Assembly: GCF_017094505.1 (NCBI RefSeq)
Contig: NZ_CP064787.1
Span: 496,001 to 560,000 of the forward strand
DNA length: 64,000 nucleotides
Origin: Halapricum desulfuricans
Lineage (GTDB): Archaea; Halobacteriota; Halobacteria; Halobacteriales; Haloarculaceae
Direction: 5' to 3'
The notes under the pieces were generated by a model, which saw only the letters and a list, made by a program, of their open reading frames with translations, did no database searches and was not told the origin of the DNA. The position numbers and the translations under genes were made by a program. Positions 50,832 to 55,981 of the stretch are shown here, one piece after another. Each line of letters starts with the position of its first letter. Position 1 is the first letter of the stretch.

Positions 50832-51248
50832 GTGACCGATAATGTCAAACTCGGTTTCGTCTGCGTCCAGAACGCGGGCCGAAGCCAGATGTCAGCCGCG
50901 TTCGCGCGCCGAGAACGGGACCGACGGGGACTGAACGGGGACATCGAAATACTCACCGGCGGGACCGACCCTGCTGAGGAGGTCCATCCGGAAGTCGTCG
51001 AAGCGATGGCGGAACTCGATATCGATATCTCCGACCGAAAGCCTCGGGCGGTCTCGACGGACGAACTGAACGACTGTGACGTCGTCGCCACCATGGGCTG
51101 TTCGACGCTCGAACTCGACGCCGACGTCGACGTCCGCGACTGGGCACTGGAGGACCCCCACGGCAAGGACGTCGAGACCGTCCGGGAGATCCGCGAGGAG
51201 ATCGAGGGTCGCGTCACCGAGCTTTTCGAAGAGTTCGTCGGGGCGTAG
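50832..51248 (+). CDS. arsC: Arsenate reductase, LMW-phosphatase/thioredoxin-coupled type
   Basis: A 138-residue enzyme that reduces arsenate to arsenite. The anion-binding loop CVQNAGRS places the nucleophile at C11, and C82 and C90 fall where the thioredoxin-linked ArsC family has its second and third redox cysteines. DPHGKDVETVREI resembles the catalytic Asp loop (DP). It starts with GTG at 50832; the nearby ATG is out of frame. It is convergent with arsR and controlled by a dyad like the one before arsD. Arsenite produced here would be the ligand of the downstream ArsD/ArsA. Confidence 0.9.
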   Translation: MTDNVKLGFVCVQNAGRSQMSAAFARRERDRRGLNGDIEILTGGTDPAEEVHPEVVEAMAELDIDISDRKPRAVSTDELNDCDVVATMGCSTLELDADVDVRDWALEDPHGKDVETVREIREEIEGRVTELFEEFVGA

Positions 51249-51274: not shown

Positions 51275-51670
51275 CTACCGATCGCTCTCGCGAGCGCCGT
51301 CGAGCGCGATCAGGAGCGCGGTCGCCCGCCTCGTGGTCCGGTACTTGCGCCACTTGCCCTCTTTGCGGCGGGTCACCAGTCCGGCGTCAGTGAGTTTCGA
51401 CAGCGCGTGGCTGATCGCCCCGTCGCTGACGTCGAGCAGCGGTGCGAACTCACAGACGCACAGTTCCCCCTCTGCTGCCTCCAGCAGTCGGACGATCTTG
51501 TACCGCGTCTCGTTGGCGAGCGCCGAAAGGATCTCGACGTCCGTATCGATCGAGTCTCCGACCGCCGCATCGAGCGCCTCGAGCTGTTCGACCCGCTGCT
51601 CGAACTCGTCGTCCTGACAGCTCCCGAGATCGTCCTCCATGTACCGCCGGAGCCGATCGTGAGTGGCCAT
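51275..51670 (-). CDS. arsR: ArsR-family metalloregulatory repressor
   Basis: A 131-residue winged-helix repressor. ELCVCEF gives the CVC metal site (C71, C73) that senses As(III)/Sb(III) in the classical ArsR type. ISHALSKLTDAGLVTRRKEGKW is the recognition helix and wing. The ATG at 51670 is preferred to the upstream TTG. CTTAAT lies ~20 nt upstream as the TATA-like element. The probable operators are the TAGC-N4-GCTA dyads at the arsC and arsD promoters; none is seen at its own promoter. Confidence 0.9.
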   Translation of the reverse strand: MATHDRLRRYMEDDLGSCQDDEFEQRVEQLEALDAAVGDSIDTDVEILSALANETRYKIVRLLEAAEGELCVCEFAPLLDVSDGAISHALSKLTDAGLVTRRKEGKWRKYRTTRRATALLIALDGARESDR

Positions 51671-51784
51671 GCGAATCAATTAAGCACGTATTGAAATAAC
51701 TGTTTTCCTCTTCTGGGGCAGCGACACCGGTAATATCGACTGAAAGACTATTACGTATCCCAAGAGGGGAGGATCTCCAAAGGG

Positions 51785-51806
51785 TTTATTTTAGCGAAGG
51801 CTAAAA
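51785..51806 (+). promoter_or_regulatory. arsDA promoter and ArsR operator
   Basis: TTTATTTTA (51785-51793) acts as a TATA-like box. The perfect dyad TTTTAGC-GAAG-GCTAAAA (51789-51806) overlaps it, so a bound repressor would block TBP. The core matches the dyad before arsC. The first ATG after it is at 51820, about 31 nt from the box. Confidence 0.7.
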
Positions 51807-51819
51807 CAATTGTGTGACG

Positions 51820-51918
51820 ATGGACTGGATACCCGACGGATATCCGGCGAGAGGTCCCGAGAAAGTCGATCCGGCGGCCGGTGGCTGTCTCAGTCTTTCA
51901 ACAGCGAGTAAACTATGA
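51820..51918 (+). CDS. 32-residue ORF leading the arsDA operon
   Basis: The ORF starts at the first ATG after the promoter and reads MDWIPDGYPARGPEKVDPAA and on for 12 more residues, with one Cys (GGCLSL). Its TGA overlaps the arsD ATG (ATGA at 51915-51918), the same type of junction used between arsA and the next gene. It would be the first translated codon set of a nearly leaderless mRNA. It may be a small protein or a coupling leader; no homolog is recognised. Confidence 0.5.
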   Translation: MDWIPDGYPARGPEKVDPAAGGCLSLSTASKL

Positions 51919-52241
51919 TCGAGGTAACTGTCTTCGAGGAAGCGATGTGTTGTACGACCGGGGTGTGCGGTCCGGATCCCGACGAGGAACTGGTCCGGTT
52001 CACAAGAACCGTCGACCGGCTCGAGGAGGAGTACGAGGCGGTCGAAGTGCGACGGGCCAGTCTGGCTCACGACACCGACGCGTTCCTGAACCACCAGGCG
52101 ATCTACGACACGGTCCAGGAGAACGGGCCGGAAGTGCTCCCGATCACTACCGTCGACGACGAGGTAATCGCGGAGGGAGAGTATCTCGACTACGACCGGA
52201 TCGAGAGCGCGGTCTCACAGCGCGTCGCACAGGAGGCCTGA
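51915..52241 (+). CDS. arsD: Arsenite metallochaperone ArsD
   Basis: A 108-residue chaperone that delivers As(III) to ArsA. The N-terminus holds C12-C13 and C18 (EAMCCTTGVCGPD), at the positions of the conserved metal-binding triad. The C-terminal vicinal Cys pairs seen in enterobacterial ArsD are absent, which is normal for shorter ArsD. The gene overlaps the upstream ORF by ATGA and ends 1 nt before arsA. Confidence 0.92.
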   Translation: MIEVTVFEEAMCCTTGVCGPDPDEELVRFTRTVDRLEEEYEAVEVRRASLAHDTDAFLNHQAIYDTVQENGPEVLPITTVDDEVIAEGEYLDYDRIESAVSQRVAQEA

Positions 52242-52242
52242 G

Positions 52243-54123
52243 ATGGGGTCGACTGCACCCCGGCAACTGGTCGAGCCGTCCGGCGGGGAGACGGAGTTCG
52301 TCTTCTTCAGCGGCAAGGGCGGCGTCGGCAAGAGCACGGTCAGTTGCGCGACCGCACAGTGGCTTGCCGAGGAGGGCTACGACACCCTGTTGGTGACGAC
52401 CGATCCCGCGCCGAACCTCGGGGACATCTTCGATCAGCCGATCGGGCACAGCGTGACGGCCATCGACGGCGTCGAGAACCTCTCGGCGATGGAAATCGAC
52501 CCCGATCAGGCCGCCGAGGAGTACCGCCAGGAGACCCTCGAACCGATGGAAGCGCTGCTGGACGAGGAGCAACTGAAGACAGTCGAGGAGCAACTCGACA
52601 GCCCTTGCGTCGAGGAGATTGCTGCTTTCGACAAGTTCGTCGACTTCATGGACGAGCCCGAGCACGACGTGATCGTCTTCGACACTGCGCCGACGGGCCA
52701 CACCATCCGGCTGATGGAGCTACCCAGCGGCTGGAACGCGGAACTCGAAGAAGGCGGTGCGACCTGTATCGGCCCCGCGGCATCGATGGAAGACCAGAAG
52801 GCACAGTACGAGAACGCCATGGAGACCCTCGAAGGCGATCGGAGCTCGTTCGTGTTCGTCGGCAAGCCCGAGGAGTCATCGATCGAGGAGATCGAGCGAA
52901 GCGCCGGCGAACTCGGGGAACTCGGAATAGAAACGGACCTGCTGGTCGTCAACGGACATCTCCCCGAGGCGGTCTGTGAGGACCCGTTCTTCGAGAGCAA
53001 GCGCGCGGACGAACAGGAAGTTATCGAGTACGTCCGCGAGGAATTCGACGATCGGCCGGTCGCGACTTATCCGCTCCGGCCAGGCGAGATTACAGGGTCA
53101 GAGTTGCTCGCCGACGTCGCGGCGGCGCTGTACGAGGGCGCCGAACCCGAGATCGATGTCGAGTCGTCGGCCAAAGCCGACGCCAGCAGCCTCGATACGA
53201 CGACCGACACCGAGGCCGTCATGGAGCAACTCCGCCCCCAGGAGGACACTCGATATCTGTTCTTCACAGGCAAGGGCGGCGTCGGCAAGAGCACGATTGC
53301 GGCGACGGCGGCGACCGCACTGGCCGGCGACGGCCAGGAGACGCTGATCGTGACGACCGACCCGGCGGCTCACCTCAAGGACGTTTTCGGGGCCGAAGTC
53401 GGTCACGAGCCGACGCCGATCACCGACGGACTCGACGCGGCCCGGATCGACCAGGAAAAAGCACTCGAGGAGTACAAGGCACGCACCCTCTCGCAGGTCG
53501 AGCAGTCCTACGAGGGCGAGGATATCGAGGAAGCTAAAGCGCAGGTCATGGAAGAACTCGAGTCGCCCTGTGCCGAGGAGATGGCCGCCTTAGAGAAGTT
53601 CGTCGACTACTTCGAAGTCGAGGGCTACGACACCGTCGTCTTCGACACCGCGCCGACGGGCCATACGCTTCGGCTGCTGGAACTGCCCTCCGACTGGAAG
53701 GGTTTCATGGACCTCGGATCGCTGACAAAGGAGGCTTCCGAGTCGGGCGAGCGATACGATCGGGTCATCGAGACGATGCGCGATCCCGAGCAGAGTTCGT
53801 TCGTGTTCGTGATGTACCCCGAGTACACGCCGATGATGGAGGCTTGGCGGGCCGCCGAGGACCTCCGGGATCAAGTCGGGATCGAGACCTCGATGGTCGC
53901 GGTCAACTACCTGTTGCCCGAGGAGTACGGCGACAACGCCTTCTTCGAGAGCCGCCGCCGCCAGCAGGCGGAGTATCTCGAACGGATCGAGGATCGCTTC
54001 GAGGTGCCGATGTTACTCGCGCCGCTCCGCCAGGAGGAACCGACCGGTCTCGACGATCTACGATCGTTCGGGGCCGAGATGCTCGACCGACCAGAAGCGA
54101 AACCACGGATGGAGATACAATGA
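52243..54123 (+). CDS. arsA: Arsenite-stimulated ATPase ArsA (duplicated)
   Basis: A 626-residue ATPase with two halves. P-loops GKGGVGKST lie near residues 24 and 343, and the signal-transduction DTAPTGHT appears in both halves. C122, C175 and C443 sit where the three arsenite ligands of characterised ArsA (C113, C172, C422) are expected. It normally drives an ArsB pump, but no arsB or acr3 gene is seen in this window. The following gene starts on its stop codon (ATGA). Confidence 0.94.
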   Translation: MGSTAPRQLVEPSGGETEFVFFSGKGGVGKSTVSCATAQWLAEEGYDTLLVTTDPAPNLGDIFDQPIGHSVTAIDGVENLSAMEIDPDQAAEEYRQETLEPMEALLDEEQLKTVEEQLDSPCVEEIAAFDKFVDFMDEPEHDVIVFDTAPTGHTIRLMELPSGWNAELEEGGATCIGPAASMEDQKAQYENAMETLEGDRSSFVFVGKPEESSIEEIERSAGELGELGIETDLLVVNGHLPEAVCEDPFFESKRADEQEVIEYVREEFDDRPVATYPLRPGEITGSELLADVAAALYEGAEPEIDVESSAKADASSLDTTTDTEAVMEQLRPQEDTRYLFFTGKGGVGKSTIAATAATALAGDGQETLIVTTDPAAHLKDVFGAEVGHEPTPITDGLDAARIDQEKALEEYKARTLSQVEQSYEGEDIEEAKAQVMEELESPCAEEMAALEKFVDYFEVEGYDTVVFDTAPTGHTLRLLELPSDWKGFMDLGSLTKEASESGERYDRVIETMRDPEQSSFVFVMYPEYTPMMEAWRAAEDLRDQVGIETSMVAVNYLLPEEYGDNAFFESRRRQQAEYLERIEDRFEVPMLLAPLRQEEPTGLDDLRSFGAEMLDRPEAKPRMEIQ

Positions 54124-54482
54124 GTGAACAACAGACTGTCGACGTGAACGACGCACTGCGCGAGTTCGTCGACGCGATCAAAGACTGCGAACAGTACCGG
54201 ACGTTCCGCGAGGCACACGAACGCCTCGACGAGGACGACGATGCCCAGCAACTCCTGCAGACCTACCAGGAAAAACAGATCCAGCTACAGCGCGGTGGAC
54301 ACGACCAGGAGGTGATGGCCGAACTCCGTGACGTCAAACGCGAGATGGACGACAACGAGACGATCAACGAATATATGCAGGCCGAGAAAACGCTGATCGA
54401 GTTGCTGGATCAGACCAACGACGTCATCAGCGAGCGGATCGACGAGGAGTTCGCCCGCTCGACTGGTGGGGGGTGTTGCTGA
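54120..54482 (+). CDS. YlbF/YmcA-like helical protein with Cys-Cys tail
   Basis: A 120-residue mostly helical protein: VNDALREFVDAIKDCEQYRT and ETINEYMQAEKTLIELLDQT match the YlbF/YmcA (Com_YlbF) fold. The C-terminus ends GGGCC after a short Gly linker. The ATG at 54120 overlaps the arsA stop, so it is co-translated. A terminal vicinal Cys pair next to arsDA suggests As(III) or metal binding. No arsenic role of this family is known to me; inference is from context. Confidence 0.78.
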   Translation: MSEQQTVDVNDALREFVDAIKDCEQYRTFREAHERLDEDDDAQQLLQTYQEKQIQLQRGGHDQEVMAELRDVKREMDDNETINEYMQAEKTLIELLDQTNDVISERIDEEFARSTGGGCC

Positions 54483-54664
54483 TGAGCACCACCGAATCGG
54501 AGGTCATCGAGGCCGCCGAGGCCCTTGGCGACGCGCTGGCCGCGGAAAAAGAAGAGATCGACCGCACGGAGTTCTTCGGGCTCGTCTCGCGGTGCAACCA
54601 GGCGATCGAGCAGGAGATCGGCATCGATTACGGATCGGTGTGTGGCGACGACGGGTGTTGCTGA
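54482..54664 (+). CDS. 60-residue Cys-tailed small protein
   Basis: A small acidic helical protein starting MSTTESEVIEAAEALGDALA and ending VCGDDGCC, with another Cys in SRCNQA. Its ATG shares one base with the previous stop (TGATG). The similar layout (helical body, Cys-pair tail) suggests a short relative or partner of the preceding gene. It is the last gene of the arsD-arsA run. Function unknown; a metal/As(III) shuttle is plausible. Confidence 0.72.
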   Translation: MSTTESEVIEAAEALGDALAAEKEEIDRTEFFGLVSRCNQAIEQEIGIDYGSVCGDDGCC

Positions 54665-54730: not shown

Positions 54731-55981
54731 ATGAACACCAACCAATCCCGCGAATCGGACCGACGACGCGATCGCTTGAGCGAGATGACAGCGGCGCTAC
54801 TGTCTTTTGACACCCAAAACCCGCCGGGCGAGACGCAGACAGCCATAGAGTGGCTCCGCGAGCGCGTCGCCCGGCTGAACGTCGAGACGGAGTGGGTCGC
54901 ATCCGACCCAGAGAAGCCGAACCTCGTCGTGACGCTGCCCGGCCAGTCCGACCGGACGTTGCTGTACGCAGGGCATCTCGACACGGTCCCGTTCGATCGC
55001 GAGGCGTGGTCGGTCGATCCGCTCGGCGAGGTCCGCGACGGCCGTCTCTACGGCCGCGGCGCGACCGACATGAAGGGGACAGTCGCGGTGATGCTTGAGA
55101 CGCTGGAGACGTTCGCGACGGCCGACGAACGGCCGCCGATCACGCTGCAGTTCGCGTTCGTCAGCGACGAGGAGACGGGCGGCGAGGCCGGCATCGACGC
55201 CGTCCTGGAGACCGACGCGATCGACGCGGAGGCGGCCGTCGTCGGCGAGACGACCTGCGTGGGCGACAACTACTCCATCGCCGTCGCGGACAAGGGCTGG
55301 ATCTGGCTCACGCTGGAGGCGAGCGGCCGGGCCGCCCACGGCTCGCGACCGATGAACGGCGAGAACGCCATCGACTACCTCTACTCGGTGATCGACTCCT
55401 GCCGGGAGTCGGTCTCCTCGCTGGAGTTGGAGTACGGCGAGGCGGTCGAACGGATCGTCGCGGAGTCCCACGAGTATTACGGTTCCTGTCCCTGCGGCGC
55501 GGGGACCCACGTCGAAGAGTTGTTCGCACATCCGACGGTCAACCTCGGGCAACTGGACGGCGGCAACACCGTCAACAGCGTGCCACAGACCGCAACGGCC
55601 GAACTCGACGTTCGGGTGACGCCCGGCGCATCCACCGAGGACGTGCTCGAGCACATCCGGTCGTGTATCGACGCCCGCGAGCACGTCTCGATCCGGGAGG
55701 TATCCTGGACGGAAGGGACGTACGTCGACCCATCGGCACCGATCGTCGAGGCCGTCACCGACGCCGCCGAGGGCGTGCTACCCGAGCGGCCGCTGGGCCG
55801 GTGTGCGACCGGGGGTAGCGACGCCAAGAAACTCCGCGAAGCGGGCGTCCCGGCCGTCGAGTGTGCCGTCGGCAGCGATACCGCACACGGCGTCGACGAA
55901 TACGTGACAGTCGAGGACCTCGAACGGACGGCTGCGTGGTACGAGCGGATCCCGTCGGTGTTTGCAGGATGGGCCGTTTGA
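54731..55981 (+). CDS. M20 family metallopeptidase (ArgE/DapE/ACY1-like)
   Basis: A 416-residue dinuclear zinc hydrolase that removes acyl or succinyl groups from amino acids or cleaves small peptides. Metal ligands are seen in AGHLDTVP, GATDMKGT and DEETGGEAG (catalytic Glu and ligand Glu), with the dimerisation-lid domain in the middle and GSDTAHGVDEYV near the end. The ATG is ~66 nt after the Cys-tailed protein with no overlap. It probably belongs to its own transcript. The substrate is unknown. Confidence 0.92.
   Translation: MNTNQSRESDRRRDRLSEMTAALLSFDTQNPPGETQTAIEWLRERVARLNVETEWVASDPEKPNLVVTLPGQSDRTLLYAGHLDTVPFDREAWSVDPLGEVRDGRLYGRGATDMKGTVAVMLETLETFATADERPPITLQFAFVSDEETGGEAGIDAVLETDAIDAEAAVVGETTCVGDNYSIAVADKGWIWLTLEASGRAAHGSRPMNGENAIDYLYSVIDSCRESVSSLELEYGEAVERIVAESHEYYGSCPCGAGTHVEELFAHPTVNLGQLDGGNTVNSVPQTATAELDVRVTPGASTEDVLEHIRSCIDAREHVSIREVSWTEGTYVDPSAPIVEAVTDAAEGVLPERPLGRCATGGSDAKKLREAGVPAVECAVGSDTAHGVDEYVTVEDLERTAAWYERIPSVFAGWAV

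Follow-up and report, generated by a model that had tools for sequence, protein, structure and literature searches.

The window, which is the whole 64,000-nt stretch of DNA analyzed here (Halapricum desulfuricans contig NZ_CP064787.1, positions 496,001 to 560,000), contains an ars cassette that ends with two small overlapping genes. A gene for an ArsC-like protein of the low-molecular-weight phosphatase family (50832..51248, + strand; 138 aa) was recognized by Pfam LMWPc with an E-value of 6e-27, and the best NCBIfam models for its product were arsenate reductases, all of them below cut-off. Next to it lies a divergent gene for an ArsR-type repressor (51275..51679, − strand), which scored 80 bits against the NF033788 metalloregulator ArsR/SmtB model (cut-off 55). 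The AT-rich inverted repeat TTATTTTAGC-4-GCTAAAACAA, located between arsR and arsD (51786..51809, strand not assigned), is a possible ArsR operator or promoter region. The arsD gene (51915..52241, + strand; NF033727, 108 bits versus a cut-off of 90) encodes an As(III) metallochaperone of 108 aa, which contains Cys12, Cys13, and Cys18 and no C-terminal Cys pair. It is followed by arsA (52243..54123, + strand), encoding a two-domain haloarchaeal arsenical ATPase (ArsA_halo), and then by hcsL (54120..54482, + strand) and hcsS (54482..54664, + strand), whose products of 120 aa and 60 aa end in STGGGCC and CGDDGCC, respectively. The arsA stop codon TGA (54121-54123) overlaps the hcsL ATG at position 54120 within the sequence ATGA (54120..54123, + strand). 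At the next junction, TGT TGC TGA TG (54474..54484, + strand), which includes both cysteine codons of HcsL, the hcsL stop codon at 54480-54482 overlaps the hcsS ATG at 54482 (TGATG), and the hcsS stop codon ends at 54664. An alternative, longer reading of hcsS, starting from GTG at 54473, would give 63 aa. The positions, both junctions, and the GGGCC and CGDDGCC ends had been described in an earlier sequence-only reading, and they were confirmed on the sequence. An identical arrangement is present in Halapricum hydrolyticum, the nearest named relative found, with 83% identity for HcsL, 93% for ArsA, and 95% for HcsS. An M20-family peptidase/deacylase gene (54731-55981) begins 67 bp past hcsS in the window, and homologs of it also follow hcsS in Halapricum and in three further cassettes of the sample (L054, L059, and L075). 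In three cassettes (L056, L059, and L070) a small CxxC protein of the Rdx family (SelW-like), ending in CSPGCC or CGPGCC, is encoded just downstream from hcsS.

The comparison with NCBIfam showed that HcsL scores 153.8 bits against NF041416 (cut-off 140), with residues 8-120 placed on positions 1-113 of the 113-position model, while HcsS scores 88.2 bits against NF041415 (cut-off 55), with residues 6-60 on positions 1-55 of 55; both proteins end in CC. The window ArsA scored 1135.2 bits against NF041417 (cut-off 800) and was matched by PF02374 in two stretches. HcsL and HcsS are the "halo-CC-star" proteins of NCBIfam, and RefSeq plasmid records name them beside arsA. A text search of the literature returned no paper using the names HcsL or HcsS for these proteins, and, judging by titles and abstracts, none of the papers containing both "YlbF" and "arsenic" is about such a gene pair. 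The two families are already catalogued and named, and no assigned function was found for them.

The earlier suggestion that the 120-residue protein is YlbF-like was upheld by its match to Pfam Com_YlbF (PF06133), with 78.9 bits at a cut-off of 23.9 and an E-value of 4.6e-22. Profile comparison also matched HcsL to YmcA/RicA (E 5e-7) and RicF (E 1e-6). The AF2 model of HcsL had a pLDDT of 86.5, and its best PDB match in Foldseek was RicF (6prk_A; TM 0.72, E 7.4e-5), so that HcsL is predicted to have the YlbF/RicA/RicF fold. The pLDDT of residues 117-120 was below 50, which suggests that this tail is flexible. HcsS had no Pfam match, and its membership in Com_YlbF follows solely from its relation to HcsL. 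Its model consists of two helices and one short helix (pLDDT 79) and retrieved no similar structure from the PDB with Foldseek, while its sequence aligned with HcsL over the C-terminal half and the tail of the latter (hhalign probability 94.4, E 8.8e-8). By this alignment, HcsS is a half-length paralog of the C-terminal part of HcsL. No hydrophobic transmembrane-like stretch was found in either protein, and neither matched the ArsD profiles PF06953 and NF033727.

The distribution of these genes was compared among 242 haloarchaeal genomes of a single class, using a threshold of at least 130 bits for HcsL. HcsL was detected in 48 genomes, HcsS in 50, and ArsA_halo in 49, with all three present in 48. 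Roughly one in five of the haloarchaea sampled thus has ArsA_halo, and the HcsL–HcsS pair occurs in 48 of those 49 genomes. The co-occurrence gave a Fisher p value of 3e-50, which does not allow for the relatedness of the genomes or for block transfer of the cassette. For this reason the exceptions are more telling than this value. The only complete ArsA_halo without hcsL-hcsS was found in genome G129 (L084:7740-9641), and it retains the same cysteines as the other ArsA proteins, which argues that HcsL and HcsS are not strictly required. No arsD was found beside this arsA, and divergent to it lies a set of genes for a molybdopterin oxidoreductase, the substrate of which is uncertain. The two other exceptions were HcsS alone, near a contig end, in G060 and one degraded copy in G068.

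In the sampled neighborhoods, for which gene calls were heuristic and some cassettes sit at contig ends, the conserved gene order was divergent arsR, arsD, arsA, hcsL, and hcsS, and the arsA/hcsL overlap had 4 bases in all 48 loci. An alignment-based search with HcsL in a GTDB-based collection returned 67 loci, all of them haloarchaeal, with arsA directly upstream in 65 (the other two were partial matches) and hcsS downstream in all 67; a search of genome contigs with the single HcsL sequence gave no matches. The sequence-only reading had proposed looking for the trio of arsA, a YlbF-like gene, and a small-Cys gene in other haloarchaea, and had named the lack of co-occurrence as the result that would speak against it. 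The trio was instead found in nearly every genome with ArsA_halo, and its conserved synteny and overlap support the view, also put forward there, that the tight coupling reflects a function shared with ArsA. The distance matrices of HcsL and HcsS were correlated with r of 0.86, and those of ArsA and HcsL with r of 0.80. The co-occurrence together with the correlated trees would also follow from cassette-wise inheritance. Chance or artefact as the source of the trio is ruled out by co-occurrence and synteny.

The permeases vary around this conserved block, with acr3 present in eight neighborhoods and an arsP-like gene in eight. Neither ArsB (PF02040) nor Acr3 had a match in the genome of the window. 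Among the 242 genomes ArsB is practically absent (three weak matches), Acr3 was found in 15 of the 49 ArsA_halo genomes versus 121 of the 193 others, and 12 of the 49 had no Acr3, ArsB, or ArsP at the thresholds used. ArsP showed no association with ArsA (Fisher p 0.49). As HcsL and HcsS accompany ArsA far more faithfully than any permease does, they most likely work with ArsA itself. An ArsP-type permease gene is located 1.7 kb past the end of the window, about 11.5 kb downstream from hcsS (G000:C1:561678-562784). It was rejected as a partner of the cassette, given the lack of an ArsP–ArsA association; since ArsP-type permeases also occur in members of the genus that lack ArsA, this gene is probably outside the cassette.

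Get3 is a homolog of ArsA and is brought to the membrane by Get1. By analogy, HcsL and HcsS could be helical docking adaptors, which recruit ArsA to the membrane or to a permease other than ArsB and whose CC tails are lipid-modified, as in Rab proteins, or bridge subunits. The scarcity of the known permeases described above is in line with such a role, as are the reports of diphytanylglyceryl-thioether proteins from Halobacteria (PMC3461281) and of XXCC and CCXX as Rab prenylation motifs (PMC13290415). On the other hand, the profile match to the Get1 coiled coil was at chance level (E 0.8) and this resemblance was discarded, a transmembrane-like stretch is missing from both proteins, and a lipid anchor would not need the conserved Cys38 and Cys54 of HcsS. 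The protein prenyltransferase alpha subunit (PF01239) was above cut-off in none of 145 genomes, although the control set likewise gave no positive, and a different enzyme might carry out lipidation in archaea. Overall, we consider docking adaptors distinctly unlikely.

Haloarchaeal ArsA is found in genomes without ArsB, and often without Acr3, and the question of its arsenite route there dates back to the knockouts in Halobacterium NRC-1. According to the passages on the NRC-1 ars cluster, deletion of arsADRC led to higher arsenite sensitivity (PMC1447603), the ars region provides resistance to As(III)/Sb(III) (PMC3600143), and the knockout of arsB had no effect, with the existence of a novel pump being suggested (PMC1447603; PMC3600143). 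We found that the cluster on pNRC100 has the order arsM-arsR2-hcsS-hcsL-arsA-arsD, which places hcsL-hcsS between arsA and arsR2-arsM; the passages cited here do not mention the two genes. HcsL and HcsS might be the coupling subunits that have been missing from an ArsA machine working without ArsB, as a YlbF-fold heteromer with the CC tails receiving As(III)/Sb(III) and ArsA feeding a non-ArsB exit. We regard this as possible but on the whole unlikely; if true, it would help to account for the novel pump inferred in NRC-1 and would make YlbF-family proteins partners of an ATPase of the ArsA/Get3 type, which is a new role for them. Two small genes that are near-constant beside ArsA make the question of the arsenite route directly testable.

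The structure of the junctions would favor termination–reinitiation at both sites and coupled amounts of HcsL and HcsS. The hcsL/hcsS junction read TGC TGT TGA in all 48 other sampled loci, where the TTG overlapping the stop codon aligns with the ATG of the window, while TGT TGC TGA TG is found in the window and its Halapricum relative. The invariance of TGC TGT in the 48 loci suggests a constraint at the nucleotide level, imposed by the TTGA start/stop overlap; the second cysteine codon of HcsS, unlike TGC TGT of HcsL, varies freely among the sampled loci. In the window and in Halapricum the cysteine codons are swapped and the start is moved, and CC is nonetheless retained, which indicates that the pair is kept at the protein level. 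The explanation that CC of HcsL is preserved merely through the codons of the hcsS start was rejected, because these two loci break the codon pattern and keep CC, and because the tails of HcsS and of housekeeping YlbF proteins carry Cys pairs without such an overlap.

The earlier emphasis on thiols agrees with the conservation data, as cysteines are the most conserved feature of both proteins. Cys119 and Cys120 of HcsL were conserved in 49 of 49 sequences, while in HcsS Cys38 was kept in 53 of 54, Cys54 in 53, Cys59 in 49, and Cys60 in 52; HcsS retains three or four cysteines. This stands against a mean pairwise divergence between loci of about 41% for HcsL and HcsS, compared with 14% for ArsA. 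In ArsA, Cys35, Cys122, Cys175, Cys245, and Cys443 were kept in 50 of 50 sequences; Cys122, Cys175, and Cys443 probably correspond to Cys113, Cys172, and Cys422 of E. coli ArsA, as judged by context. The sequence-only reading had correctly observed that the window ArsD lacks the C-terminal Cys pairs of enterobacterial ArsD, but its proposal that HcsL and HcsS replace these pairs did not hold. The C-terminal pairs of ArsD are tied to its repressor role and are also absent from ArsD of Bacillus CDB3, while Cys12, Cys13, and Cys18 carry the chaperone role (PMC4562236). These three cysteines are intact in 48 of 48 cassettes, and compensation for ArsD was therefore rejected.

Two other roles for the thiols were considered. 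HcsL–HcsS could act through redox-active vicinal thiols, recycling the ArsC-like phosphatase-family enzyme or keeping the cysteines of ArsA and ArsD reduced, in the manner of thioredoxin or glutaredoxin. An ArsC-like gene is near most cassettes, and thioredoxin-like and Rdx-family CC-ended proteins adjoin some of them. However, HcsL and HcsS have neither the thioredoxin fold nor a CxxC motif, and several cassettes have no ArsC-like gene in their vicinity, nor does this gene ever lie inside the overlapping block, which makes this role very unlikely. It is even less probable that they are passive, metallothionein-like buffers sequestering As(III)/Sb(III) without contacting ArsA. Both proteins are small, contain cysteines, and are coupled to a resistance operon, but the small number of conserved cysteines (two to four each), an ordered and conserved YlbF fold, and a tight link that is to ArsA and not to the ars genes in general speak against such buffers.

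Housekeeping haloarchaeal YlbF proteins also have cysteines near their C termini: a near-terminal GGCC was found in 19 and SGCC in one of the 20 checked. The C-terminal Cys pair thus probably arose before the arsenic cassette and is not specific to arsenic. Among 24 loci, the housekeeping ylbF gene mostly has dph2 (diphthamide synthesis) in its vicinity, and in 10 of the 24 (L088, L090, L183-L185, L188, L190, L193, L201, and L202) it is followed by a same-strand MinD/ParA-like ATPase gene. This neighborhood of a CC-tailed YlbF-type protein and a P-loop ATPase recalls that of HcsL and ArsA. These observations touch on another explanation, in which HcsL and HcsS form a RicAF-like pair. Its C-terminal cysteines would bind an Fe-S cluster or some other metal, and the pair would act as a sensor of damage by redox stress or metalloids, with a regulatory output, either RNA processing or control of ArsA, in place of metalloid transfer. 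In RicF and RicA, the C-terminal cysteines C134/C146 and C141, respectively, ligate a 4Fe-4S cluster shared with RicT (PMC6751060), HcsL–HcsS and RicA–RicF each consist of two paralogous proteins, RicA/YmcA and RicF are the best matches of HcsL, and dph2 near the GGCC-bearing YlbF encodes an Fe-S enzyme. However, RicT/PSP1 (PF04468) was absent from 194 of 194 haloarchaeal genomes, including that of the window, so that an Fe-S site of this kind would need another partner. Adjacent cysteines ligating one cluster have almost no known precedent according to the authors of the Ric study (PMC6751060), and the genomic tie of hcsL-hcsS is to arsA and not to an RNase. An Fe-S or sensory role thus seems rather unlikely.

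The reading we prefer, at somewhat less than even confidence, is that HcsL–HcsS is a dedicated accessory of ArsA, which holds and exchanges As(III)/Sb(III) via flexible thiol tails. It is favored because the genes track ArsA and because the strongest visible conservation falls on thiols at flexible ends, and the resistance phenotypes reported for the NRC-1 cluster, which includes the pair, are in line with it. The two proteins would be made in coupled amounts via the stop/start overlaps and would probably form a heteromer of two YlbF-type paralogs, comparable to that of RicF and RicA in Bacillus. The flexible C-terminal tails of the two proteins, with CC of HcsL and Cys38, Cys54, and Cys59/60 of HcsS, could jointly form a thiolate site for soft metalloids, which would take As(III)/Sb(III) from the ArsD–ArsA pair or hand it to this pair. 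ArsA might thereby work with any exit route of the host, be it Acr3, a permease of the ArsP type, or some further route. Against this accessory role, the three-Cys chaperone site is already complete in ArsD, and GGCC in ordinary haloarchaeal YlbF shows that a Cys pair can serve another purpose. HcsL and HcsS would also represent a new kind of task for the YlbF family, whose known roles, to our knowledge, lie in RNA processing and development in bacteria.

When compared with known systems, the window proteins are fully within the membership of the NCBIfam families HcsL, HcsS, and ArsA_halo and show no difference from them. HcsS has the spacing C-x4/5-CC, longer in some sequences, which is similar to CC-x4-C of ArsD in reverse order, while no sequence relation of HcsL or HcsS to ArsD was found. 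CstX and CstY are likewise small proteins consistently linked to an ArsA homolog, but they are membrane proteins of a different system (PMC2963123). The RicA (YmcA) and RicF (YlbF) proteins of Bacillus subtilis share with HcsL and HcsS the Com_YlbF family and fold, the presence of two paralogs, even though HcsS has half the length, and C-terminal cysteines. The haloarchaeal pair differs from them in having vicinal terminal CC instead of spaced cysteines, in its tie to arsA, and in the lack of RicT in its hosts. A further counterpart of the window cassette is the arsADRC/arsR2M cluster on pNRC100 of Halobacterium NRC-1, which contains the same cassette, including hcsL-hcsS, and differs by the second arsR and arsM located beyond these two genes.
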